Assembly: GCF_000287675.1 (NCBI RefSeq)
Contig: NZ_ALJL01000022.1
Span: 124,001-188,000 of the forward strand
Reading direction: 5' to 3'
Source of the DNA: Lachnoanaerobaculum sp. ICM7
GTDB taxonomy: Bacteria > Bacillota > Clostridia > Lachnospirales > Lachnospiraceae
DNA: 64,000 nucleotides
The notes under the pieces are model-generated. The model made no database searches. It was given only the letters and a program-made list of their open reading frames with translations, and was not told where the DNA came from. Positions 25,893-63,540 of the stretch are shown here, one piece after another. Each line of letters opens with the position of its first letter. Positions within the stretch are counted from its first letter, which is position 1. The position numbers and the translations under genes are program-made.

Positions 25893-25967
25893 TTATATAT
25901 AAATTGATACTTGAGTTATATTTGAATGTGTTCTTTTAGAAGAAATACATAAAAATATTGATTTAGA

Positions 25968-26033
25968 GGCCTAATATAAGCTCATAATCGGTTGAGCGTC
26001 TCTACCAATTACCGTAATAATTGACTATAGGCC
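25968..26033 (+). promoter_or_regulatory. Purine riboswitch aptamer, guanine class
   Basis: The sequence folds as the purine three-way junction. P1 is GGCCTA (25968-25973) with TAGGCC (26028-26033). P2 is GCTCA (25980-25984) with TGAGC (25993-25997) and a GG-bearing loop. J2/3 is GTCTCTACC (25998-26006). P3 is AATTA/TAATT around loop CCGTAA (26012-26017), which matches the canonical L3. The base that pairs with the ligand, in GACTATA, is C (26025), which by family rule selects guanine, hypoxanthine or xanthine rather than adenine. It is followed by a hairpin (26032-26048) and a terminator, and precedes guanine deaminase. Confidence 0.92.
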
Positions 26034-26053
26034 CACAGAAATTGTGGGTGGAG

Positions 26054-46705: not shown

Positions 46706-47563
46706 TTGAAAGATAAATATTATTCTATTGGAAGAGTATCTGAAATATGTAATATACCGATAAAGACTTTAAGATATTATGATAAGATAAATGTGATGGT
46801 TCCAAGTATCAGACAGGAAAACAATAATTACAGATATTACAGTCATGATCAAATGGTAAGGCTTTTTATCATAAAGAGGCTCAGATATTTGGGCTTTTCG
46901 CTGGAAGAGGTTAGAAATATATTAAAAGAAGATGATATTCAAAAGATAGAACTTATAGTGACAAAAAAACAAAACTCCATAAAAGATGAAATTATTGAGC
47001 TCAATAAAAAGTATGAAGAAGCTGCTACTTTAAATAATAAAATTAAATCTGCGCAAAGAATACTTGAAGACAGTAATAATTACAATGTAGAAAGTTCTTT
47101 TAAGCTTGAAAAGCAAAGAGAAGTATATGTATTTGGTAAAACTACCATGATGCAGTCTTATAGGAACGAAAAAGTCAGTCTGGAAAAATGGATAGATATT
47201 ATAGAGTCTGCAAAAGAAAGAAATCTGAATATTCAGGGTGATATACTTGTATCCTATCACACTGAGATGTTTGGACAATTTATTCACAGAGATTGTGAGG
47301 TGGAGTTTTCCATTGTAGTTGAAAATGATATCAAGGATGTTGAAGTAAAGAAATTCGGAAACTTTCTTGCCGCCAATGCTATATATGTCGGCGATTACAG
47401 CGATATAGTGCATACATATATTTCTTTGAAAAGATGGATAGAAGAAAACAATCTGATTGTAGATGGACCTGTAACAGAAAGATTTATGCTTTCACCGGTG
47501 GATCTGCCTAATACAGATCGACATATTGTAAAGATAATAGTACCGGTAAAACCGAGAAACTAA
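46706..47563 (+). CDS. MerR-family regulator with GyrI-like effector domain
   Basis: A 285-residue transcription regulator. It has a MerR helix-turn-helix-wing (about 4-72, with TLRYYDKINVMVPS), a dimerisation coiled coil (about 75-125) and a C-terminal GyrI-like or BmrR-like ligand-binding domain (about 130-285). The start is TTG 46706, five bases after GGAGGA. A terminator follows. Its target is unknown; members of this group often control efflux pumps. The pyrimidine operon lies 405 bp downstream in the same direction, without a recognisable MerR spacer promoter. Confidence 0.85.
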   Translation: MKDKYYSIGRVSEICNIPIKTLRYYDKINVMVPSIRQENNNYRYYSHDQMVRLFIIKRLRYLGFSLEEVRNILKEDDIQKIELIVTKKQNSIKDEIIELNKKYEEAATLNNKIKSAQRILEDSNNYNVESSFKLEKQREVYVFGKTTMMQSYRNEKVSLEKWIDIIESAKERNLNIQGDILVSYHTEMFGQFIHRDCEVEFSIVVENDIKDVEVKKFGNFLAANAIYVGDYSDIVHTYISLKRWIEENNLIVDGPVTERFMLSPVDLPNTDRHIVKIIVPVKPRN

Positions 47564-47599
47564 TAATTGAATAAAGAGTATATTTATATACTATCAAAA

Positions 47600-47628
47600 A
47601 GTCTCCCCTTAGGGGAGGCTTTTTTGTT
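47600..47628 (+). terminator. Rho-independent terminator after the MerR gene
   Basis: GTCTCCCCT (47601-47609) pairs with AGGGGAGGC (47611-47619) with one wobble, the centre opening as a small loop, followed by TTTTTTGTTTT. It separates the MerR unit from the pyrimidine operon. Confidence 0.9.
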
Positions 47629-47968: not shown

Positions 47969-48478
47969 ATGGCGGGATTTATTATATCAAATACCATATC
48001 AAACATAATTGTATGTGGCCTATGGACATATATTTCAGCTATGTTTGCCGGTCCGCTGATAGCAACTTGGGTAGGCTTTGCAGGATGTACATCTTATTAT
48101 GCAGCAGGTTGTGGTAAAAACGGTTTTATCAGATCATTATGCAGTAATATGGCAGGTATCTTTATCGGATGTACAATCATTTGGCTATGTGTAAATGTAA
48201 ACGGAAGTCTATGGTTTAACGGATTGATAACAGGAATATTCAGTGGAGTTATCATCTATATCACACATTGTGATTTAACCAGATTTGCAACTTGCACATT
48301 TATGGGCGGCTTTAGTGCTTTTGCATCAGGTGGTAATTGGAAGATGTTGATTATTTGCTTTATCCTGGGAAATATCGTTGGGCTCGCATCGGATTATCTG
48401 GGTAGATTTATATTAGCAAAGTTTTTCAAGAAGACTGATAAAAAAGACTGGGTTATTGCTAAATTTTTAGAGGATTAA
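47969..48478 (+). CDS. DUF1097-like membrane protein, candidate pyrimidine transporter
   Basis: A 169-residue polytopic membrane protein with about five hydrophobic segments rich in Gly, Cys and small residues and a short charged C-terminus (KKTDKKDWVIAKFLED). It resembles DUF1097 proteins such as E. coli YcdZ, which have no proven function. It is the first gene of the pyrimidine-degradation cluster, preceded by a very strong AAAGGAGG, and preT follows 25 bases later. Its position suggests uptake of uracil or thymine, or export of an end product; this is inference. No other transporter lies in the operon. Confidence 0.65.
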   Translation: MAGFIISNTISNIIVCGLWTYISAMFAGPLIATWVGFAGCTSYYAAGCGKNGFIRSLCSNMAGIFIGCTIIWLCVNVNGSLWFNGLITGIFSGVIIYITHCDLTRFATCTFMGGFSAFASGGNWKMLIICFILGNIVGLASDYLGRFILAKFFKKTDKKDWVIAKFLED

Positions 48479-48503: not shown

Positions 48504-49712
48504 ATGAGCAAAATTTTAAAATTGGCATATGGCGTGGAGAAGTCGGAAGGCTTTAATTACAGACTTGCCATGGAGGAAGCATCCAGGTGTCTTCTATGTG
48601 AAGATGCACCTTGTTCTAAGGGCTGTCCGGCAGGTACAGACCCGGCTAAGTTCATTCGCTCACTGAGATTTAAGAACATAAAAGGTGCTGCAGAGACAAT
48701 AAGAGAAAACAATCCTTTAGGTGGTTCATGTGCCTGGGTATGTCCTTATGACAGAATGTGTGAAGAAGAATGTAGTAGATGTGGAATAGACAAGCCTATA
48801 CAGATTGGTAAAATACAAAGATATCTTGTTGAAGAAGAACAGGCTATATCGGCAAAGTTTGTCAGTGCCGGAGAAAAGATCGGAAAGAAGGTAGCGCTGA
48901 TAGGTGCCGGACCTGCATCACTTGCTTGTGCAAGAGAGCTCGCACTTGCAGGAGTGGATACAACAATTTTTGAAAAGCAGGCTAAGGCAGGTGGAGTTTT
49001 GAGATATGGAATCACACCTACAAGACTTCCTGACCGTGTTGTGGATTTTGATATAGAACTTATAAAAGAGTTGGGAGTAAAGTTTGAATTCGGTAAGGAA
49101 ATCAAATTTGAAGATATTCCTAAACTTAAGAGTGAGTATGACGCCGTATTTGTCGGAGTCGGTCTTTGGGATTCAAAGAAAGTAGATATAGAAGGTAGTA
49201 ATCTTAAGGGCGTTGAGTCGGCAATCGAGTTTTTGTTTAAAGCTAGAACAGGTGAGATTAAAGAACTTCCGGAGAGAGTAATTGTAATCGGAGGCGGTGA
49301 TGTAGCAATGGATTGTGCTACAACCGCAAGACAATTGGGGGCTGAAAAAACCTGTATCTGCTATAGAAGAACTATAGAAGAGGCACCTGCAAATATTGAA
49401 GAGATTTCTTTTGTAAGAGAGATGGGAATTCCTATTTATACCGGATTTGCTCCTGAAAAGATCTGTGGAGAAAACAATCAGGTAAGAGCTCTTGTTGCAA
49501 AGGGAATGAAGGATGATAATGAGATGACACTTAAGGCGGATATGGTCGTATTTGCAATAGGACAGGATCAGGTTGAAGACTACAAGAGTTTTGTTGCAGG
49601 TGATGGAGTATTTGCCGGTGGTGATGCATTACATGGTGTCGGTATAACAGTGGTAGAGTCTGTTCATGAAGGAAAAGAAGCGGCTTACCAGATATTAGAT
49701 TATATAAGGTGA
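48504..49712 (+). CDS. preT: Dihydropyrimidine dehydrogenase (NAD+) subunit PreT
   Basis: Flavoprotein subunit that takes electrons from NADH for reduction of uracil and thymine by PreA. The 402-residue protein has an N-terminal Fe-S domain with cysteine clusters ([18 protein letters not shown] about 30-47; [15 protein letters not shown] about 76-90). An FAD/NAD-binding glutamate-synthase-like domain follows, with [17 protein letters not shown] (about 130-146), [10 protein letters not shown] and [13 protein letters not shown] (second dinucleotide fold, about 257-269). Length and order match E. coli PreT. The gene is 10 bp ahead of preA. Confidence 0.93.
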
Positions 49713-49722
49713 GGAGATTAAT

Positions 49723-50985
49723 ATGGCTTTGAAAAAAGATTTATCAATAAATTTTTTAGGTGTTGATTGTGAGAATCCTTTTTTTCTATCTTCTTCACCT
49801 GTAGGCAGTAATTATGAGATGTGTGCCAAGGCACTGAGAGCCGGTTGGGGTGGTATTTTTTATAAAACAATAAGTGTTTTTATACCAAATGAATGTTCTC
49901 CAAGATTTGATATAGCTTCAAAAGAGGGAACGCCTTGGACCGGATTTAAGAATATGGAGATGACTTCAGACAAGCCGAATGAAGTAAACTTTGAGTTTAT
50001 CAGGCAATTAAAGAAGGACTTTCCGAATAAAGTGATAGTTTCAAGTATCATGGGCGCAAGCGATGATGAGTGGGCGGTACTTGCAAAAGAGTCTGAAAAG
50101 GCCGGAGCGGATATGATTGAATGTAATTTCTCATGTCCGCAGATGACTTCATCAACTATGGGTTCTGACGTAGGACAAAATCCTGATTTGGTAAAGCATT
50201 ATTGTGAAGTTGCTTCTGCGAGTACTAAGCTTCCGATAATAGCAAAGATGACACCAAATCTTGGAAATATGGAGATTCCTGCAAGAGCAGCTATAGAAGG
50301 CGGTGCAAAGGGAATAGCTGCAATTAATACAGTAAAATCTATTACAAATCTTGATATAAACTTAAGAACAGGAATGCCTGTTGTAAACGGAAAATCTGCA
50401 ATATCAGGATATTCCGGAGCAGCAGTAAAACCGATTGCACTAAGATTTATATCAGACTTAATGCATGATCCTATTGTAAGTAAAGTTCCTATAACCGGAA
50501 TGGGCGGTATAGAAACCTGGAGAGATTGTCTTGAATTTTTGATGCTTGGTGCATCAAATCTTCAGGTAACAACTGCAGTAATGCAATATGGATATAGAAT
50601 TGTTGAAGATATGATAAGCGGTATATCACATTATATGAATGATTACGGAATCAATAAACTTCAGGATATAGTGGGTACTGCTGTAGGAAATATTGTTGGT
50701 GCTGATGATTTGGATAGATCATATAAGATACTGGTTCAGATCGATAAAGAAAAATGTGTCGGATGTGGAAGATGCTATGTATCATGCTTTGATGCGGCTC
50801 ACCAGGCTATTGAATATGACTATGCAAGCAGAGTTCCGACAATAAATGAAGATAAATGTGTAGGATGTCATCTTTGCTTAAATGTTTGTCCGGTAATGCA
50901 ATGTATAACACCGGGTAAACTTGTATATAAGAATAAGAATGATAATCATACAATTAATTTAAAGGAAAGTAATAGTTATCTATAA
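49723..50985 (+). CDS. preA: Dihydropyrimidine dehydrogenase subunit PreA
   Basis: FMN-containing catalytic subunit reducing uracil to 5,6-dihydrouracil (and thymine to dihydrothymine). The 420-residue protein has the dihydroorotate-dehydrogenase-like barrel ([18 protein letters not shown] about 17-34; ECNFSCPQM about 139-147; [39 protein letters not shown]). A C-terminal ferredoxin domain holds two [4Fe-4S] motifs, [11 protein letters not shown] and [11 protein letters not shown] (about 345-390). The motifs follow E. coli PreA closely as I recall it. With PreT it forms the NADH-dependent enzyme of the reductive pyrimidine route. Confidence 0.94.
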
Positions 50986-51005: not shown

Positions 51006-52376
51006 ATGTTAGATTTAATTATTAAAGGTGGTGTGGTAGTTACAGCAACAGATATGTTCCCATGTGATGTGGGTGTAAAAGACGGTAAGATTGTTGAGAT
51101 GGGAATGAATCTTGATATGGATGCAAAGGAAGTAGTGGATGCTACGGGAAAGCTTGTACTTCCGGGAGCATTGGATGTGCATACTCATCTTGCTATGCCT
51201 TTTGGAGGAACAATATCTGCCGACAGTTACCTTTCAGGTACCAGAGCCGCAGCCTGTGGAGGTGTTACTACAATATTTGACTATCCGGTTCAGAGAAAAG
51301 GCGGCACCATTATGGATTTGGTAAATTCCAAAAAAGCCATACTTGAAAAAGAAGCGTGTGTGGACTGGGCATCTCATTGTATAATTACAGACTTTAATGA
51401 CGGTCAGATACTTGAAGAGATGGAAGAAGCCGTTAAAGAAGGTATTACTTCTTACAAATGCTTCATGGTATACAAAAAAGCCGGAATGATGGTAGATGAC
51501 GGAATGTTTGCGACTTTACTTCTTAGAGCAAAGGAACTTGGAGCATTGGTAAATGTTCATGCAGAGAATTCCGATATGATAGATTATTTTGAGGCTAAGT
51601 TCAAAAAAGAAGGAAACTTAAGTCCTTGGTATCACTATCTGGCACGTCAGGAGTTTGTTGAAGCTGAAGCCGACAGAAGAGCTCTGCATTGGTGTAAGCA
51701 TTTGGATGCACCGCTCTACATTGTTCATATGGCTGACAAGGAAGGCCTTGAGGCATGTATAGAGGGCAAGAAAGAGGGAGTACCTATTTATGTGGAGACC
51801 TGCCCACAGTATCTTGAGTTCACATGTGAGGTATATAAGAGAGAGGACGGAAGAAACTTTGTCTGCTCACCTCCAATAAAGGGAGAGGAAAGCAGACAGG
51901 CTCTTTGGGAAGCTATAAAGAAAAATCAGATTGATGTTGTTGCAACAGATCACTGTCCGTTCCAAAGTTATGAAAAAGATTGGGGAATTGACGACTTTAC
52001 AAAGATCCCAAACGGATGTGCGGGCCTTGAAAACATGTATCCATATATGCTTGATGCCGCTAACTCCGGTAAAATTACTTTTTCACAGGCTGTTGCTCTT
52101 TGCTCAACAAATCCGGCAAGAATTTTCGGATGTGAAAAGAAAGGCGGAGTCAGAGTAGGAAATGATGCGGATATAGTTATTTATGACAGGGATAAGGATT
52201 TTACAATAAGTGTAAATAATATGCATTCCGACTATGACCACACAATATGGGAAGGTAAGAAACTTCATGGATATCCTGTAAAGACATTCCTTAGAGGACA
52301 GCTTGTCTATGACAACGGAGATTTTGTAGGAAAGCCCGGAATGGGTAGATTCGTAAAGAGAGTACCTAGAAGTTAA
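51006..52376 (+). CDS. hydA: Dihydropyrimidinase (D-hydantoinase type)
   Basis: Zinc amidohydrolase opening dihydrouracil to N-carbamoyl-beta-alanine. The 456-residue protein shows metal ligands in LDVHTHLAMPFG (about 56-67), the carboxylated lysine in TSYKCFMVYKKAG (about 147-159), HAENSD (about 181-186), VHMADKEG (about 237-244) and the catalytic Asp in VATDHCPF (about 312-319). Length and motif order fit dihydropyrimidinase rather than allantoinase. Preceded by AGGGGGG; starts 20 bases after preA. Confidence 0.93.
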   Translation: MLDLIIKGGVVVTATDMFPCDVGVKDGKIVEMGMNLDMDAKEVVDATGKLVLPGALDVHTHLAMPFGGTISADSYLSGTRAAACGGVTTIFDYPVQRKGGTIMDLVNSKKAILEKEACVDWASHCIITDFNDGQILEEMEEAVKEGITSYKCFMVYKKAGMMVDDGMFATLLLRAKELGALVNVHAENSDMIDYFEAKFKKEGNLSPWYHYLARQEFVEAEADRRALHWCKHLDAPLYIVHMADKEGLEACIEGKKEGVPIYVETCPQYLEFTCEVYKREDGRNFVCSPPIKGEESRQALWEAIKKNQIDVVATDHCPFQSYEKDWGIDDFTKIPNGCAGLENMYPYMLDAANSGKITFSQAVALCSTNPARIFGCEKKGGVRVGNDADIVIYDRDKDFTISVNNMHSDYDHTIWEGKKLHGYPVKTFLRGQLVYDNGDFVGKPGMGRFVKRVPRS

Positions 52377-52469: not shown

Positions 52470-53726
52470 ATGTATAAGTGTAGCGAAGATAGAATGGCGG
52501 ATAAGATTAAAACCATGAGTCAGTTTGGTGATGCAGGACATGGAGGTATCACAAGATATTCTCTTTCAAAAGAAAATCTTATGGCAAGAGCTGAATTCAA
52601 GAAAAGAATGGAAGCTATCGGTGCAAAGATTAAGACCGATGATATGGCAAATATGTATGCAACATTAGAGGGTAGTGATCCTACACTTCCTGCAATTGTT
52701 ATGGCTTCACATTCAGATTCAGTAAGAAATGGTGGAAACTATGACGGTATCTTAGGTGTAATGGGAGCTATGGAAGTTTTGGAAACTGTTGCAGAGCAAA
52801 AGATACCTCATAAGCACAATCTCGTAGCAATGATTTGGACAAATGAGGAAGGATCTTTATATCCACCTGCTATGATGTCATCAGGAGTTATCTGTAATGA
52901 TTACTTACCTGAAGAGATTGGAAAGAAATTTAAGCATGAGGATATGCTTGCATCAACTTCAGTCCTTGATAAGAATAAGACATTTAAAGAGGCTCTTGAA
53001 GCAAGCGGCTATAAGGGAGATGTAGCAAACAGATTAAATCCTAAGGATTATAAGGCAATGTTCGAGCTTCATATTGAGCAGGGACCTATCCTTGAGGCTG
53101 CAAAGAATGATATCGGAATAGTTACCTGTGTTCTTGGAATGATAAACTACAGAATCAAAGCGTTCGGACAGTCAGATCATGCAGGAACAACTCCTATGCC
53201 ATATAGAAAAGATGCATTATATGCAGCTGCAAAGCTTTTACAGTATCTTCATGATGAGCTTGATAAGCTTGATAAGGCACTAGTATATACCACAGGTGAG
53301 ATAGTATGTCATCCAAATGTACATACAGTTATTCCTGATTTTGTAGAGTTCTCGATTGATGCAAGACATGAGGATCCTAAGGTTATAGGGCAGGTTGTTG
53401 AAGTAATAAAGAATATGCCGAAGGAAATAGTAGGCTGTACTACAGGTTATGAGAGGGCATGGTCACGAGATACAGTTTACTATGATGAGGAGCTGGTAGG
53501 TTATGTAACAGAAGCTGTAAATGAGCTCGGATATTCAAATCAGAGAATTAACTCAGGTGCAGGACATGATGCACAGTTTGTAAGCTATATGATGCCTACT
53601 ACAATGATATTTGTACCTTCAAAGGACGGACACTCACATTGCGAAGAGGAGTTTACACCGGTTGAGCAGTGTACAAAGGGTGCCAGTGTACTTTTGAATG
53701 CAGTATTGAAGTGTGATGCTCAATAA
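52470..53726 (+). CDS. M20-family N-carbamoyl-amino acid amidohydrolase (beta-ureidopropionase role)
   Basis: Metal-dependent amidase likely converting N-carbamoyl-beta-alanine to beta-alanine, CO2 and ammonia. The 418-residue protein shows hydantoinase/carbamoylase-family motifs: ASHSDSVRNGGNYDGILGV (metal His and Asp, about 80-98), WTNEEGSLYPPAMMSSGV (about 124-141), ELHIEQGPILE (about 194-204) and GQSDHAGTTPMPYRKDAL (about 230-247). Related enzymes act on N-carbamoyl amino acids or allantoate; the neighbouring preTA and hydA favour the pyrimidine substrate. Start ATG 52470 behind GGGGG, flanked by hairpins on both sides. Confidence 0.88.
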   Translation: MYKCSEDRMADKIKTMSQFGDAGHGGITRYSLSKENLMARAEFKKRMEAIGAKIKTDDMANMYATLEGSDPTLPAIVMASHSDSVRNGGNYDGILGVMGAMEVLETVAEQKIPHKHNLVAMIWTNEEGSLYPPAMMSSGVICNDYLPEEIGKKFKHEDMLASTSVLDKNKTFKEALEASGYKGDVANRLNPKDYKAMFELHIEQGPILEAAKNDIGIVTCVLGMINYRIKAFGQSDHAGTTPMPYRKDALYAAAKLLQYLHDELDKLDKALVYTTGEIVCHPNVHTVIPDFVEFSIDARHEDPKVIGQVVEVIKNMPKEIVGCTTGYERAWSRDTVYYDEELVGYVTEAVNELGYSNQRINSGAGHDAQFVSYMMPTTMIFVPSKDGHSHCEEEFTPVEQCTKGASVLLNAVLKCDAQ

Positions 53727-53739
53727 TATGATTTAAGTG

Positions 53740-53764
53740 TTGGGGTCAAATATTTTGGCCCCAA
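53740..53764 (+). other. Intra-operon hairpin before the hotdog gene
   Basis: Ten-base stem TTGGGGTCAA (53740-53749) with TTGGCCCCAA (53755-53764), one wobble, five-base loop, no T-run. It divides the pyrimidine-opening genes from the CoA-dependent genes and may mark a processing point. Confidence 0.5.
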
Positions 53765-53789
53765 TATTACAGTAGAACAGAGGTGTGAA

Positions 53790-54245
53790 ATGAGTGTTAG
53801 AAAAGTAGCGGAATTAAATTACAATATGACAACTGCCGATGCAAACAATGTAGACGGAAAAATACCGTTTGGAAGACAGTTTGATTTTATCGGTGATGTT
53901 GAAACAGAGTTGATGATATTAAATGACGGTGATGAATCTTTGTGCCTTGGATATACAGATGTTGAACTGTATGAAGATGCGTATGTAGGTGATCAACTTA
54001 ATTTTAGAGCAGAGATGCTAAAGGTGGGAAATACATCAAGAACCTGTAGAATAAGTACATATAAGGTTGCAACACCTGCTTACAGAATGGGTATCAAAGA
54101 TGCAAATCCCGGAGATATGTATTATTTTGATCCTCCAAAATTGATTACTGAAGGTACTGTAGTACTTGTAGTAAAGAAAGAATTACAACGTGGAAATCAG
54201 CCAAGTGGTGAAGTTATTGATCCTTGGAGAGAACTTGAGCTTTAA
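53790..54245 (+). CDS. Hotdog-fold protein, beta-aminoacyl-CoA ammonia-lyase type
   Basis: A 151-residue single hotdog domain. It carries GDVETELM (35-42), DGDESL (46-51), VGDQLNF (66-72) and VGNTSR (79-84). I associate these with beta-alanyl-CoA ammonia-lyase (Acl of Clostridium propionicum) and 3-aminobutyryl-CoA ammonia-lyase (Kal). The N-terminal HYGGNLVxGAR-type segment expected in that family is degenerate here (NNVDGKIPFGR, 19-29). Expected reaction is beta-alanyl-CoA to acryloyl-CoA plus ammonia, probably together with the hotdog domain of the next gene, which starts 11 bases later. The family call is from memory of motifs, not a search. Confidence 0.72.
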   Translation: MSVRKVAELNYNMTTADANNVDGKIPFGRQFDFIGDVETELMILNDGDESLCLGYTDVELYEDAYVGDQLNFRAEMLKVGNTSRTCRISTYKVATPAYRMGIKDANPGDMYYFDPPKLITEGTVVLVVKKELQRGNQPSGEVIDPWRELEL

Positions 54246-54256
54246 TAGGGGGTATT

Positions 54257-55825
54257 ATGAGTACTGAAGTTACATTAAGATATAGAATGTCCGATAGAGA
54301 TGTTTTCTACGGTGGAGGAGTTGTAAACGGAGCCAGATCCATTACTTTGATGGAAGATACCGCAAACAGATTGATGACCAAGGTTTATGGAAATCAGAGC
54401 AGATGTGCAAAGGTAAGAAAAGTAAGATTGTTTGTGCCATGTTTTGCCGGAGATTATATGGAGTATAAGGCGAGACTTTTGGGTGAAGAAAACGGAAGAG
54501 CAATTATAGAAGTACGTTCTTTTAAGGTTGCGGTTATCCCTGAGGAGCCTGAGTTTGAAAGCTCTATAGATGTTTTGGAAGATCCTCCTCTTTCAACCGT
54601 ATGTATTTTTGAATATATTATTCCGGAAAAAAAGGAGAAAAAGAAGGCAAAAGCGCTTGAGGGGTTGAAAGTTCTTGACCTTACACATGCATATAACGGT
54701 CCTTTCTGTACCGCACTTTTAGCAGACAACGGTGCTGAGGTTATAAAGATAGAGCCTCTTACAGGTGATCAGTCAAGATATTGGCCTCCAATGGATGACA
54801 ATAGCGGTGAGAGCGGATTTTATGCATTTATAAACAGAAATAAAAAAGGAGTTACTCTTAACTTAAAGACTGAAAAAGGAAGAGAGATTTTCTATGACCT
54901 TGTCAGAGAGGCTGATGTGGTGGTAGAAAACTTCAGAGTTGGAGTAACAAAGAAATTACAAGTTGACTATGAGACATTAAAGAAGATAAATCCAAGAATA
55001 ATTTATGCTTCAGGTAGCGGTTTCGGACAGTATGGACCTTTCTCAAACAGACCGTGCTATGATATCGTTGCACAGGCTCTGGGCGGTATGATAAATCTTA
55101 CAGGTTATACAGATGCTCCTCCTGTAAAATGCGGTGTATCGGTAGCCGATAATGTTACAGGAATTTATCTTTGCGTCGGTGTACTTATGGCTCTTTACAG
55201 AAGAAATGTAACCGGTGAAGGTCAGCAGGTAGATGTGGCTATGGCAGATACTATATTCACATTGCTTGAAAATGCAATAATCTATACAACCCTTAAGGGA
55301 ATTATACCTCAGAGACAGGGAAATATTGATGCTACAGTTTCACCATTCAATGTATATGAGGCAAAGGACGGATATATAGCACTTGGAGTAGGTACAGATA
55401 AGCTGTTTAAGGTATTCTGTGATGTAATAGGCAGACCGGACCTTGTTACAAATGAAAAATTTGCAACCAATGATCTCAGAATTAAAAATTACAATGACGG
55501 TTTACATGAGATAATTGTGGATTGGGTAAAGCAAAGAGGTAAGGCGGAAGTAGAGAGTATGTTTGAAGAGGTAGGAATACCTTGCGGACAGATACTTGAT
55601 ATGAAGGAAGCGATAGAACATCCACATTTCAAAGCAAGAGAGATGATGGTACATGTTGAGCATCCTACTATCGGTGATATGTATATACAGGGTTGTCCTA
55701 TAAAACTTAGCGAAACACCGGGAAGCGTAGATGCTCCGGCACCGCTACTTGGACAACATAATAAAGAGGTTTACGGCTTTGATGATGAAACATTGAAACA
55801 ATTAAAAGAAGAAGGCGTAATCTAG
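54257..55825 (+). CDS. Fusion of ammonia-lyase-type hotdog domain and class III CoA-transferase
   Basis: A 522-residue two-domain protein. Residues 1-122 form a hotdog domain with MSDRDVFYGG (11-20), VVNGAR (22-27) and GDYMEY (65-70), paralogous to the preceding gene. A Lys/Glu linker (123-135) leads to a class III (CaiB/BaiF-type) CoA-transferase: GLKVLDLTHAYNGPFCT (136-152), ENFRVGV (224-230), SGFGQYGPF and the presumed catalytic Asp269 in YDIVAQALGG. The likely job is activation of beta-alanine with CoA from propionyl- or acetyl-CoA, coupled to deamination. I know of no described enzyme with this fusion. There is no sign of frameshift between domains. Confidence 0.82.
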   Translation: MSTEVTLRYRMSDRDVFYGGGVVNGARSITLMEDTANRLMTKVYGNQSRCAKVRKVRLFVPCFAGDYMEYKARLLGEENGRAIIEVRSFKVAVIPEEPEFESSIDVLEDPPLSTVCIFEYIIPEKKEKKKAKALEGLKVLDLTHAYNGPFCTALLADNGAEVIKIEPLTGDQSRYWPPMDDNSGESGFYAFINRNKKGVTLNLKTEKGREIFYDLVREADVVVENFRVGVTKKLQVDYETLKKINPRIIYASGSGFGQYGPFSNRPCYDIVAQALGGMINLTGYTDAPPVKCGVSVADNVTGIYLCVGVLMALYRRNVTGEGQQVDVAMADTIFTLLENAIIYTTLKGIIPQRQGNIDATVSPFNVYEAKDGYIALGVGTDKLFKVFCDVIGRPDLVTNEKFATNDLRIKNYNDGLHEIIVDWVKQRGKAEVESMFEEVGIPCGQILDMKEAIEHPHFKAREMMVHVEHPTIGDMYIQGCPIKLSETPGSVDAPAPLLGQHNKEVYGFDDETLKQLKEEGVI

Positions 55826-55838
55826 TGGAGGAAAAGAA

Positions 55839-56981
55839 ATGGATTTTAATTTTTCCAAAGCACAGTTGATGCTGAGAAAAACTGTAGCCGACTTCAGTGA
55901 AAATGTGGTAAAACCAAGAGCTGAAGAAATAGATAGAAGCGGAAAGTTTCCAAAAGATTTATTTTTGGAGATGACCAAGATGGGATTAACCGGTATAGGA
56001 ACTGAAGAAAAATATGGAGGAAGCGGAGGCAGCGATATCGAAAAGATAATTGCTGTGGAAGAAATAGCGAAATACTGCGGTTCTACTGCAGCTACACTTT
56101 CAATACATACTATATTTGCTTCAGTAATCGGAAAATTCGGTACTGAAGAACAAAAGCAAAAATATTTGCCGGTAGTATGTTCAGGAGGCGAGTTGGGGGC
56201 ATTTGCCCTCACCGAGCCAAATGCCGGATCTGATGCCGGAAGTGCAAGGACAACCGCTATATTTGATGAGAGTAAACAAGAGTATGTTCTAAATGGTACA
56301 AAATGCTTTATAACAGGTGGAGGATTGGCAAAGTATGTATTGGTATTTGCTCTTACATCACCTGAATTAAAGACCAAGGGACTTAGTTGTATACTCGTGG
56401 AGCGTGGAACTCCGGGATTTTCAATAGGTAAGATAGAAGATAAGATGGGACTTCACGGATCCGAGACAGCGGAGCTTATATTTGATAATTGCAGGGTACC
56501 TAAGGATAATCTTATAGGACCGCTCGGTAAGGGATTTAAAATTGCAATGACTGCACTTGACGGTGCAAGAATAGGAATTGCGGCACAGGCTGTTGGAATT
56601 GCGGCAGGTGCATTGGATGAAAGCATAAAGTACACAAAAGAAAGAGTACAATTTGGCAGACCTATTTCCTCATTGCAGGGCTTACAATGGTATATTGCGG
56701 AGATGGCTACAAAGGTTGAGTGTGCAAGATGGATGACATATAGAGCGGCAAGCCTTAAAGTAAGCGGTATGCCGTATACAAAAGAGGCTGCTATTGCAAA
56801 GTTTAATGCATCAAAGGTGGCTGTTGAAGTAACAGATAAGGCGTTACAGATACATGGAGGATATGGATATATGAGAGACTATCCATTAGAGAGAATGTAT
56901 CGAGATGCAAAAATAACGGAAATATATGAAGGTACTTCAGAGATTCACAAGGTTGTTATAGCCAGAGAAGTGCTGAAATAG
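55839..56981 (+). CDS. Acyl-CoA dehydrogenase family, candidate acryloyl-CoA reductase
   Basis: FAD enzyme of 380 residues, full acyl-CoA dehydrogenase layout. It has ALTEPNAGSDAGS (about 125-137), CFITGGG (about 154-160), the middle beta domain and the C-terminal catalytic Glu region IYEGTSEIHK (about 362-371). In this operon, beside etfBA and the ammonia-lyase/CoA-transferase genes, the expected direction is reduction of acryloyl-CoA to propionyl-CoA, as in the acryloyl-CoA reductase-Etf complex of Clostridium propionicum. For thymine the substrate would be methacrylyl-CoA. Butyryl-CoA dehydrogenase activity is possible on sequence alone. GGAGGAAAAG ribosome site. Confidence 0.87.
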   Translation: MDFNFSKAQLMLRKTVADFSENVVKPRAEEIDRSGKFPKDLFLEMTKMGLTGIGTEEKYGGSGGSDIEKIIAVEEIAKYCGSTAATLSIHTIFASVIGKFGTEEQKQKYLPVVCSGGELGAFALTEPNAGSDAGSARTTAIFDESKQEYVLNGTKCFITGGGLAKYVLVFALTSPELKTKGLSCILVERGTPGFSIGKIEDKMGLHGSETAELIFDNCRVPKDNLIGPLGKGFKIAMTALDGARIGIAAQAVGIAAGALDESIKYTKERVQFGRPISSLQGLQWYIAEMATKVECARWMTYRAASLKVSGMPYTKEAAIAKFNASKVAVEVTDKALQIHGGYGYMRDYPLERMYRDAKITEIYEGTSEIHKVVIAREVLK

Positions 56982-56989
56982 GGGGTAAT

Positions 56990-57802
56990 ATGAAGATCAT
57001 TGTATGTATAAAGCAGGTGCCAAATACAAGTGAAGTCAAAATCAACCCTGAAACAAAAACACTTATCAGAGACGGAGTGGAAAGTATAATAAATCCTGAT
57101 GATAAGAATGCACTTGAGGCGGCATTAAAAATAAAGGATGAAAAGGGTGCTAAGGTCGTTGTAGTAAGTATGGGACCTATGCAGGCAAAGGAAGCAATAC
57201 TTGAAGCTCTTGCTATGGGAGCTGACAGCGCTTATCTTATAAGTGACAGAAAATTCGGTGGATCCGATACTTGGGCTACAGCAACCATTTTGGCGGCTGC
57301 TATAGAAAAAATAGGCGACTATGATTTGATTATATGTGGCAGACAGGCTATAGACGGTGATACTGCTCAGGTTGGACCGGAGATAGCAGAGTTTCTTAAT
57401 ATACCACAGGTTACATATGCAAAGGAGTTGGAACTAAAAGACGGTGCGGTCAGAGTAAAAAGATTTTGTGAGTCAAAAGACTATGAATTTGAAGTAAAGC
57501 TTCCTGCTCTTATCACAGCTATTAAAGAACTTAACACTGCAAGATATCCAAGTGTGAAAGGAATCTTTAAAGCTTATGAGGGTGATGAAGAATTGGTGAA
57601 GATCCTTACCTTTGATGACTTGAATGTGGATGAAACTCAGATAGGTATCAAAGGTTCTCCAACAAATGTACATCGTTCATTCGTGCCTGTAAAAGAAAAG
57701 CATAGTGAGTTTATAGAAGGAAATACGGCCATGGAAAAAGCCAAACTTCTTTTGACAAAGCTATATGAGAATAAATTGATACAGTCCGGAGGTGCCAAGT
57801 AG
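56990..57802 (+). CDS. etfB: Electron transfer flavoprotein beta subunit
   Basis: Partner of EtfA delivering electrons from NADH to the acyl-CoA dehydrogenase encoded just upstream. The 270-residue protein begins KIIVCIKQVPNT and has SMGPMQAKEAI, the ALAMGAD turn, DRKFGGSDTWATA and the CGRQAIDGDTAQVGP segment (about 119-133). These are the features I associate with EtfB proteins of anaerobes, including bifurcating ones with FAD in EtfB. Nine bases after the dehydrogenase, and one-base overlap with etfA (TAGTG). Confidence 0.93.
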   Translation: MKIIVCIKQVPNTSEVKINPETKTLIRDGVESIINPDDKNALEAALKIKDEKGAKVVVVSMGPMQAKEAILEALAMGADSAYLISDRKFGGSDTWATATILAAAIEKIGDYDLIICGRQAIDGDTAQVGPEIAEFLNIPQVTYAKELELKDGAVRVKRFCESKDYEFEVKLPALITAIKELNTARYPSVKGIFKAYEGDEELVKILTFDDLNVDETQIGIKGSPTNVHRSFVPVKEKHSEFIEGNTAMEKAKLLLTKLYENKLIQSGGAK

Positions 57803-58839
57803 TGGAAAGAGCAAAGGTAAATCAAGACATTAATCTTAATGACTATAATGATGTATGGGTACTTGCAGAAACTGTAAACGGAAAAATTTTGCCTATAACA
57901 TTGGAACTGATGGGTGAGGGCAGAAAACTTGCAAATGACCTTGGGAAAAAACTTGCAGTAATTGTGCCGGGCTATAATATAGAAGAGGCTGCAAAGGTGC
58001 TTGTAGGGTATGATGTCGATATAGTATACTATGTGGAACATGAACTCTTGAAAGATTTTTCCACTTTGGGATTTGTGGAGGTACTTTCAAAAGAAGTGAA
58101 AAAAAGAAAACCGGAAGTTCTTTTGGTTGGTGCAACCTCTATAGGTAGAGATATAGGGCCGAGACTTGCCGCAAGGCTTGGAACCGGACTTACTGCCGAT
58201 TGCACAGGACTGGAGGTTGACGCGGAAGATAAGAAGCTTCTTATGACAAGACCTGCTTTTGGTGGAAATATTATGGCTACAATTATTTGTCCTAAAAACA
58301 GACCACAGATGGCAACCGTAAGGCCGGGAGTGATGGCAAGGGCAAAGAAAATTGAAAAGTCAAATGCAAGTTTTGAAAAGATCATACCCGAGTTGAAAGA
58401 AGAAGATATAAGATCAAAACTTATCGGAACAATTGAACATGATCAAAAACGGGTAAATTTGACAGATGCAAAGATTATTGTATCAGGCGGTAGAGGTATC
58501 AAGAATAAAGACGGTTTTGCATTGATTGAAAGTCTTGCTAAAGCTCTAGGCGGTGAAGTGGGTTCATCACGTGCCTGTGTGGATGCAGGATGGATAGACT
58601 CATCTCACCAGGTTGGACAGACAGGAACTACTGTCAGACCTGATTTATATATTGCCTGCGGTATATCGGGGGCTATACAGCATTTGGCGGGAATGAGCGA
58701 ATCGAAGTATATTGTTGCAATAAATACAGATAAAAATGCACCTATATTTGATATTTGTGATTATGGTATCGTAGGTGATTTAAAAGAAATTATACCGGCA
58801 CTTGTTTCAAGCATAGAATCGGGAGAGTTTACATTATAG
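57802..58839 (+). CDS. etfA: Electron transfer flavoprotein alpha subunit
   Basis: FAD-binding subunit of 345 residues. The start is GTG 57802, overlapping the etfB stop by one base, with GGAGGTG upstream. The N-terminal domain (about 1-190) is followed by the C-terminal FAD domain with SGGRGIKNKDGF (about 229-240), SRACVDAGWI (about 253-262), the HQVGQTGTTVRPDLY segment and CGISGAIQHLAGM. It completes the acryloyl-CoA reductase module and is the last gene of the cluster before a terminator-like hairpin. Confidence 0.93.
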   Translation: MERAKVNQDINLNDYNDVWVLAETVNGKILPITLELMGEGRKLANDLGKKLAVIVPGYNIEEAAKVLVGYDVDIVYYVEHELLKDFSTLGFVEVLSKEVKKRKPEVLLVGATSIGRDIGPRLAARLGTGLTADCTGLEVDAEDKKLLMTRPAFGGNIMATIICPKNRPQMATVRPGVMARAKKIEKSNASFEKIIPELKEEDIRSKLIGTIEHDQKRVNLTDAKIIVSGGRGIKNKDGFALIESLAKALGGEVGSSRACVDAGWIDSSHQVGQTGTTVRPDLYIACGISGAIQHLAGMSESKYIVAINTDKNAPIFDICDYGIVGDLKEIIPALVSSIESGEFTL

Positions 58840-58863: not shown

Positions 58864-58893
58864 GGGGTGGCTTATGCTACCCCTGATTTTGTT
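58864..58893 (+). terminator. Terminator-like hairpin after etfA
   Basis: GGGGTGGC (58864-58871) pairs with GCTACCCC (58876-58883), one wobble, loop TTAT, followed by TGATTTTGTTTATTT. Imperfect T-run, but the position fits the operon end. Confidence 0.65.
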
Positions 58894-61204: not shown

Positions 61205-61287
61205 GCCGGTGTGGCGGAATGGCAGACGCGACAGACTCAAAATCTGTTATTCGAAAGGGTGTGCGAGTTCGAGTCTCGCCACCGGCA
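61205..61287 (+). tRNA. tRNA-Leu (anticodon CAA)
   Basis: Acceptor GCCGGTG (61205-61211) pairs perfectly with CACCGGC (61280-61286), discriminator A at 61287. The anticodon arm ACAGA-CTCAAAA-TCTGT gives anticodon CAA, reading UUG. A long variable arm typical of class II leucine tRNAs precedes the T-arm (GCGAG-TTCGAGT-CTCGC). The 3' CCA is not encoded and must be added by the cca product. No integrase or duplicated 3' end is nearby, so it is not marking an island. Confidence 0.95.
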
Positions 61288-63329: not shown

Positions 63330-63540
63330 GCTGTGACATTGATAGCTGAGAAGCATAGGTTGCCGTTTACGGGTTTTATGTGGAGCGAAGGTCATGTTGC
63401 AAAAACTGGCGACAAGTCACTGTACAAACAGCATCTCATATTGAGTATTTTCGTGGGTTAGTCACTATGACACGCACGGAAGAGTGTACAGTCACCGCTT
63501 GTCAATTTCTTTTATAAAGATTGAAAAGGAGGCGGCTTTT
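63330..63540 (+). promoter_or_regulatory. Structured leader of the S10 operon
   Basis: A leader of about 210 bases between the promoter and rpsJ. A long-range pairing joins GACAAG (63411-63416) to CTTGTC (63498-63503) and CTGTACA (63420-63426) to TGTACAG (63485-63491), enclosing a 58-base arm. Such leaders are commonly bound by ribosomal protein L4 (rplD) or otherwise provide feedback control of the operon; which mechanism applies here is not visible. Confidence 0.6.

Follow-up and report, generated by a model that had tools for sequence, protein, structure and literature searches.

A 64,000-nucleotide stretch of Lachnoanaerobaculum sp. ICM7 (contig NZ_ALJL01000022.1, positions 124,001 to 188,000; hereafter the window) carries an operon in which two small hotdog-fold proteins, here called HD1 and HD2, are encoded side by side, HD2 being the N-terminal part of a fusion with a class III coenzyme A (CoA) transferase. 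HD1 and HD2 are homologous to single-chain ammonia lyases, have lost complementary motifs, are constantly paired in the samples searched and have diverged in step, and they lie among genes of uracil and beta-alanine breakdown. We suggest, with a probability of about 0.68, that HD1 and HD2 form an obligate heteromeric beta-aminoacyl-CoA ammonia lyase with one live site, most likely acting on beta-alanyl-CoA; a heteromer with a single live site is, as such, very probable.

53790-54245, + strand: HD1, stand-alone hotdog protein of 151 amino acids, putative acid-donating lyase subunit (4mtu match, NF052388, AlphaFold2/Foldseek)
54257-55825, + strand: HD2-CoA-transferase fusion of 522 amino acids (open reading frame, 11-base gap after HD1)
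54257-54622, + strand: HD2, fusion residues 1-122, N-terminal hotdog domain, putative loop-donating subunit (4mtu match, AlphaFold2/Foldseek)
54656-55762, + strand: class III CoA-transferase domain, fusion residues 134-502 (PF02515, 441 bits, cut-off 23.3)
55247-55249, + strand: candidate catalytic Asp331 of the CoA-transferase domain (conserved in the alignment to YfdE, 4hl6)

In the mechanism that we propose, the class III CoA-transferase, fused to HD2 in Lachnoanaerobaculum, would make beta-alanyl-CoA. HD2 would supply the loop where the central helix begins (Tyr18, Gly20, Asn24, Gly25), which would hold the thioester, and HD1 would supply acids in the middle of the helix and after it (Asp36, Glu40, Asp46, Asp48, Glu49), which would bind the ammonium group and remove it. 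The other site, made of the HD1 loop and the HD2 helix, would be dead. Activation and deamination would take place in one complex, and AcrC-Etf would reduce the acryloyl-CoA to propionyl-CoA.

Homology and predicted fold

Both open reading frames described in the original prediction, of 151 and 522 amino acids, are present, and its proposal of paralogous hotdog domains agrees with our searches. In a single-sequence search Acl2 of Clostridium propionicum (PDB 4mtu) stands out as the only convincing solved relative of HD1 and HD2, with E 1.2e-16 for HD1 and 1.7e-7 for HD2. The AlphaFold2 models of HD1 (predicted local distance difference test score 92.0) and of HD2 (residues 1-127; 90.3) are both hotdog folds, and the best Foldseek match of both is again 4mtu, with template modelling scores of 0.80/0.84 (HD1) and 0.81/0.73 (HD2). 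VIA-align, run for HD2, aligned 122 residues with 4mtu at Z 16.3 and a root-mean-square deviation of 2.6. HD1 and the HD2 domain score 62.5 and 55.2 bits on NF052388 (3-aminobutyryl-CoA ammonia lyase), below its cut-off of 160, and Pfam at E 1 gave nothing for either, so there is no MaoC membership either. Automatic annotation may therefore miss both proteins. Judged by sequence and predicted fold, HD1 and HD2 are paralogues of Acl and Kal, the single-chain lyases, and have diverged from them.

The hotdog fold is common to acyl-CoA thioesterases and to the regulator FapR, and one thioesterase ties with 4mtu as the VIA-align match of HD2. HD1-HD2 could on these grounds be a thioesterase or a CoA-ester-binding regulator and not a lyase. 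We consider this highly improbable, since a lyase is the best sequence and Foldseek match for both chains, the operon showed no further lyase candidate and hydrolysis by a thioesterase would make the CoA transfer futile.

The fusion partner is a class III CoA-transferase, as had been predicted: the domain covers the full length of PF02515 (positions 1-366 of 366) and stands in an operon that runs from beta-alanine to propionyl-CoA. Its best solved relative by sequence is YfdE (4hl6), in which the motif VDIAMFD contains the Asp that is aligned with Asp331; Asp331 is the candidate for the Asp that acts as nucleophile in class III CoA-transferases.

Division of the conserved motifs between the two chains

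We compared 34 canonical rows (30 Kal-like and 4 Acl-like, including Acl2) with 27 HD1 and 29 HD2 rows, from which identical cores were dropped and near-identical ones kept. Most rows (24 HD1, 26 HD2) belong to what we call pair a, the fully split kind; a less split pair b is described below. The reference set consists of 43 positions, each of which is conserved across no fewer than 33 of the 34 canonical rows. Group labels were given by profile score, above 140 on profile A1 for HD1 and above 110 on profile A2 for HD2, and the highest scores among canonical rows are 112 with A1 and 90 with A2 (95 with A2 for L129, a later addition). These profiles include the motifs, and a tree without the motif columns serves as their control.

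Canonical rows carry the loop and the helix acids together in one chain, as the original prediction stated for Acl and Kal. HD1 carries DANNVDGKIPFGRQ at the position of DAHYTGNLVNGARI in Acl2 and retains GDVETELM and DGDESL, while HD2 carries DVFYGGGVVNGAR and MEDTANRLM and has GNQSRC where DGDESL would be expected. In the window the segments are as follows.

53841-53876, + strand: degenerate loop of HD1, residues 18-29, ANNVDGKIPFGR against AHYTGNLVNGAR in Acl2 (0 of 7 loop positions kept)
53892-53942, + strand: intact helix acids and next loop of HD1, residues 35-51, GDVETELMILNDGDESL (alignment)
54308-54337, + strand: intact loop of HD2, residues 18-27, YGGGVVNGAR (alignment)
54350-54376, + strand: degraded helix motif of HD2, residues 32-40, MEDTANRLM, with Glu replaced by Arg38 (alignment)

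Counting the reference positions that are kept in at least 90% of rows, pair-a HD1 retains 0 of 7 in the loop (Acl2 17-27) and 11 of 14 in the helix and acid loop (Acl2 34-54); for pair-a HD2 the figures are 4 of 7 and 1 of 14. Positions kept by one partner alone number 0 for HD1 and 4 for HD2 in the loop, and 10 and 0 in the helix, with a Fisher p of 0.001 that is descriptive only, because the two segments were picked after the alignment had been inspected. Gly35, Asp36, Thr39, Glu40, Gly47, Asp48 and Glu49 (HD1 numbering) are found in 27 of 27 HD1 rows and Asp46 in 26. From here on Acl2 numbering is used: Tyr19, Gly21, Val24, Asn25 and Gly26 are present in all 29 HD2 rows, and Tyr19 in 3 of the 27 HD1 rows. 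Glu39 is kept in 27/27 HD1 against 1/29 HD2 (otherwise Arg in 22, Lys in 3, Asn in 2 and Ser in 1), and Asp47 in 27/27 HD1 against 0/29 HD2, where it is always Asn. At position 28, 26 of the 27 HD1 and 27 of the 29 HD2 have Arg or Lys. The split holds in HD1 that are 55-96% and in HD2 that are 43-95% identical to those of the window. At the level of the aligned sequences the loss is complementary, of the loop in HD1 and of the helix acids in HD2, and this claim of the original prediction, made from one pair, extends to all the rows compared. Its further claim that MEDTANRLM stands in HD2 instead of GDVxTELM is right for Glu39; loss of the entire motif is ruled out by the retained Asp of GD (see below).

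The conservation of the acids in all 27 HD1 rows, save one Asp45, together with the fusion of HD2 to the CoA-transferase in two lineages, may also be read in another way: a homo-oligomer of HD1 would be the enzyme, and HD2 would anchor or regulate the CoA-transferase without taking part in catalysis. HD1, however, is without the loop that every canonical row has kept, and the five loop residues that are invariant in HD2 persist in proteins that are mostly unfused. As an anchor would not need these residues, we regard this explanation as quite unlikely and favour the heteromer.

Why the two halves should meet

The available text on YciA (HI0827), a hexameric thioesterase, describes a pocket of D44 to which monomer A contributes residues 52, 58-61 and 125-131, and monomer B residues 29-35 (PMC10560148). 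We assign D44 itself, whose chain is unnamed in that text, to monomer A, since it lies on the same face of a helix as residue 52. In our profile alignments (Neisseria thioesterase; HI0827 aligned ranges) the GD motif falls on the catalytic Asp and the loop motif on residues 29-35, within about one residue. In the part of the SaPaaI report that is available, one of two essential residues lies in the loop before the helix and the other in mid-helix (PMC13114782). Since the pieces of the YciA pocket appear to come from opposite chains, those lost by HD1 and by HD2 would, by analogy, be expected to face each other across the dimer.

Pairing, phylogeny and the graded series

HD2 lies in the same locus for 27 of 27 distinct HD1 cores, some of them nearly identical; the order is HD1-HD2 on one strand in 26 and reversed in one (L108). 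The pairs are uncommon. A class sample of 391 genomes contains 11 HD1 and 11 HD2 copies, all within the same 8 genomes, and a family sample of 397 genomes has HD1 in 6, with an adjacent HD2 in 6 of 6. Among 398 genomes of the phylum, searched at E 1e-25, a threshold that would miss weaker HD1, HD1 was found in the window genome alone; the four other genomes found have canonical-type genes. Some genomes of the class and family samples are also the source of named pair loci, of which 20 are used below (for example, apparently, G387/L005, G088/L006 and G653/L010), so these samples are not independent of the 20 loci.

The distances of HD1 and HD2 correlate with r = 0.94 (19 loci), while for HD1 or HD2 with the CoA-transferase (18 loci) or AcrC (13 loci) r is 0.52-0.59, and for CoA-transferase with AcrC 0.68. 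In the tree HD1 and HD2 each lie on one side of a branch as single clades (100/99 and 100/100), which persist when the motif columns are removed (95/97 and 100/100). The free tree joins HD1 to Acl (99/90), and the motif-free tree warns of long branches meeting there. An approximately unbiased (AU) test does not reject HD1 and HD2 as one clade (p 0.594), so that a duplication before the split from Acl and one after it are both compatible with the data.

Three genomes that also carry pair a have the less split pair b (L108:6815-7691, L111:6373-7275, L115:6407-7286). HD1b retains His-Tyr-x-Gly and has lost Gly26 (VNG to VQP), and HD2b keeps the whole loop, has lost Asp47 in 3 of 3 and keeps Glu39 in 1 of 3; the polarity of loss is identical in pairs a and b. 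Genome G1131 (L127) has two tandem Acl-like copies, both with the loop motif, Glu39 and Asp47, and with His at position 45. The Clostridia display a graded series, from tandem Acl-like duplicates through the partly split pair b to the fully split pair a. We give about even weight to a history in which a duplicated homomer with two equal sites became an enzyme with one live and one dead site, the series records this passage from homomer to heteromer, and the fusion confines acryloyl-CoA production to the assembly. Such a natural series would be a model, in small proteins, of how a homo-oligomer becomes an obligate hetero-oligomer.

Tandem duplication alone was rejected as a cause of the split: the G1131 copies keep their motifs, and Peptoniphilus stercorisuis has two identical tandem Acl-like lyase copies adjoining its split pair (L018:6954-7858). 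Pair b of L108 lies near PreT, PreA and ureidopropionase genes.

Fusion to the CoA-transferase

The original prediction proposed that fusion to the CoA-transferase could channel beta-alanyl-CoA to the lyase, and such channelling is conceivable. The fusion does recur in other genomes, and it is a side event: the HD1-HD2 pair is the conserved unit, and the fusion is local. HD2 and the CoA-transferase are fused in Lachnoanaerobaculum (window, and L005 and L006, whose HD1 is 99% identical to that of the window), Lachnospiraceae oral taxon 107 (L007) and isolate CHKCI004 (L013), with linkers that differ between lineages. An AU test on the CoA-transferase tree (21 rows, leaving out L036 and two same-genus rows cut at locus ends) rejects a single clade of fused domains (p-AU 2.8e-4). 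Sequence relationships suggest that the fusion probably arose twice, in Lachnoanaerobaculum with its close relative and in another lineage; alternatively, one fusion may have been followed by repeated fissions. The CoA-transferase gene lies directly 3' of HD2 in six unfused loci (L008-L012, L014), and this unfused order is the natural precursor of a fusion. The fused reading frame supports a physical association of the putative lyase with the CoA-transferase, and if it holds, reactive acryloyl-CoA would be made inside a multi-enzyme assembly.

The locus of isolate CHKCI004 (L013:6280-8968) has, besides its own fusion, a stand-alone HD1 and an extra free HD2. In Clostridium sp. OS1-26 (L024:6714-7899) the class III CoA-transferase is read as two open reading frames, from a broken gene or a sequence error.

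Operon and substrate

The pair is preceded and followed in the window by the genes below. All lie on one strand with HD1 and the HD2 fusion, which stand between the amidase and AcrC.

47969-48478, + strand: DUF1097 membrane protein, first gene of the operon (9 of the 20 named pair loci have relatives)
48504-49712, + strand: PreT-like protein (named by adjacency to PreA)
49723-50985, + strand: PreA, dihydropyrimidine dehydrogenase with the PreT-like protein (NF006183, 585.8 bits, cut-off 335)
51006-52376, + strand: dihydropyrimidinase (TIGR02033, 459.5 bits, cut-off 393)
52470-53726, + strand: carbamoylase-type amidase, probable beta-ureidopropionase (TIGR01879, 360 bits, cut-off 204)
55839-56981, + strand: acryloyl-CoA reductase AcrC (NF042972, 703 bits, above the cut-off of 640)
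56990-57802, + strand: EtfB (named from sequence, without a profile search)
57802-58839, + strand: EtfA (named from sequence, without a profile search)

The PreT-like protein passes no curated cut-off among the matches listed (25 families), and the amidase also scores 481.6 on NF006771, an 'allantoate amidohydrolase' subfamily (cut-off 399). The DUF1097 protein is a candidate transporter of a pathway compound. The order of the operon, from uracil to beta-alanine, CoA transfer, deamination and propionyl-CoA, makes beta-alanyl-CoA a likely substrate, and we think it likely to be the main one in this genus. No other candidate gene for the deamination was seen in the operon. The pair is a specific candidate for the enzyme that handles beta-alanine when Clostridia degrade uracil anaerobically; the genera with the pair include oral and gut ones.

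Within the fetched stretches of the 20 named pair loci, at an identity of at least 45%, a class III CoA-transferase is present in 19, AcrC in 16 and at least one pyrimidine gene in 15; 14 of 20 related loci have Etf genes together with the pair. CoA-transferase, AcrC and pyrimidine genes were found in 0 of 7 canonical-lyase regions, one of which is only 4.5 kb long. The window genome (98.63% complete) holds, at E 0.001, HD1, HD2 and a canonical Kal as its members of the family and nothing else. This Kal gene (G000:C22:218538-218912) lies some 41 kb from the pair on their common contig, with KCE, KDD, lysine 2,3-aminomutase (KamA) and lysine 5,6-aminomutase.

Evidence against the proposed enzyme and its substrate

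Several observations weigh against the reading that we prefer. His18, found in 34 of 34 canonical rows, is present in 0 of 24 pair-a HD1 (Asn, Ala, Ser or Gly) and 0 of 26 pair-a HD2 (Phe or Tyr), and at 15 of the 43 canonical positions neither pair-a chain reaches 90%; the loop has 3 of these among its 7 positions, the helix segment 3 among 14 and the remainder 9 among 22. A composite site would for these reasons differ from that of Acl: the rebuilding of one site from two halves, which had been proposed, finds its complementary loop and helix motifs, but would be incomplete. Asp35 of the GD motif, nearest to the catalytic Asp of thioesterases, is retained in 28 of 29 HD2, so the putative dead site is not stripped of all acids. 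The tie of HD2 in VIA-align is with an acyl-CoA hydrolase of Staphylococcus (Z 16.5 against 16.3 for 4mtu). The search for HD2 in the family sample covered those 14 genomes that had an A1 match, and lone HD2 may exist in the rest of that sample. With HD2 by itself, a single origin of the fusion is compatible with the AU test (p 0.127). The structure predictions are of single chains, and the evidence as a whole is computational.

Two further points concern the substrate: 5 of the 20 pair loci are without a pyrimidine gene in the fetched stretch, and in L018 and L116 an Acl-like gene adjoins the pair, which may therefore serve another substrate there. The same heteromer might act on 3-amino-2-methylpropanoyl-CoA, from thymine, or on both the thymine- and the uracil-derived compounds, while a canonical Acl takes beta-alanyl-CoA where it is present. 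Three genomes (G537, G672, G740) hold both pair a and pair b, the loss of His18 suggests an altered pocket, and a second acyl-CoA dehydrogenase, perhaps for a methyl-branched substrate, lies near several pairs; all five that were tested score 417-471 bits on the AcrC model, below 640.

L118:7995-9134: second acyl-CoA dehydrogenase
L109:8073-9212: second acyl-CoA dehydrogenase
L018:8897-10039: second acyl-CoA dehydrogenase
L111:5082-6221: second acyl-CoA dehydrogenase
L116:8705-9850: second acyl-CoA dehydrogenase

In the window, the sole reductase of the operon passes the acryloyl-CoA reductase cut-off and the genome has no further member of the family than the Kal described above. Action on the thymine-derived compound, alone or together with the uracil-derived one, seems to us unlikely, and beta-alanyl-CoA remains the preferred substrate.

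Comparison with known systems

In the pathway of C. propionicum, Acl acts between the CoA-transfer and the acryloyl-CoA reductase steps, as we propose for HD1-HD2. Acl (PDB 4mtu, 4mzq), the best sequence and Foldseek match of both chains, has both motif sets and His18 in one chain, whereas in HD1-HD2 the motifs are on two chains and His18 is in neither. Kal of lysine fermentation (NF052388) is homologous too, but has all motifs in one chain and belongs in the window genome to a lysine operon. Being homologous to Acl and Kal, yet divided in its motifs and below the Kal cut-off, the pair is classed here as a putative heteromeric variant of the hotdog ammonia lyases. We know of no earlier heteromeric hotdog ammonia lyase.

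Among other hotdog proteins, HadAB and ChsH1-ChsH2 are described, in the available parts of two reports, as heteromeric MaoC-type hydratases with one functional site per heterodimer, and an additional domain of ChsH2 binds the enzyme that follows (PMC4491049, PMC11321319). HD1-HD2 resembles them in having two paralogous hotdog chains, constantly paired and with complementary losses, and would likewise have a single functional site per dimer. It differs in that their His/Asp dyad, as far as these texts describe it, is wholly on one chain, while the conserved motifs of HD1-HD2 are divided between chains. The YciA/TE6 thioesterases share the fold and, from the available text, probably a two-chain pocket (PMC10560148), but are homomeric hydrolases. 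YfdE, Frc and SUGCT, class III CoA-transferases, share the full domain; the window protein differs from them by its N-terminal hotdog. BvaB1/BvaB2 were rejected as a precedent, as they resemble enoyl-CoA hydratases and not Acl in the available part of PMC4619459.

The accessible text on the reductive uric acid pathway does not treat the deamination step (PMC12507026), and that on Anaerostipes hadrus covers preTA and hydA, with no mention in it of an ammonia lyase or of acryl compounds (PMC11036815). Titles and abstract starts of the open-access literature gave no heteromeric beta-aminoacyl-CoA ammonia lyase among the matches listed.

Other elements of the window

Terminator-like sites flank the operon, at 47596-47624 (5' of its first gene) and 58864-58883 (3' of its last). 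Three weaker sites on the + strand are intragenic; the total of 9, against a mean of 5.3 in shuffled sequence, is little in excess. A MerR-type regulator with a GyrI-like ligand domain is encoded directly upstream of the operon (46706-47563). Between the ureidopropionase gene and HD1 lies a strong RNA hairpin (53737-53767; -20.4 kcal/mol over 69 nucleotides, z -3.2), matched in stability by 2 of 200 shuffles, without a T run and with its stem kept in L005-L007; it could lead to unequal expression of the two halves of the operon. Rfam matches elsewhere in the window are a purine riboswitch (25951-26047), a tRNA (61205-61287) and an S10-Clostridia ribosomal protein leader (63340-63415).

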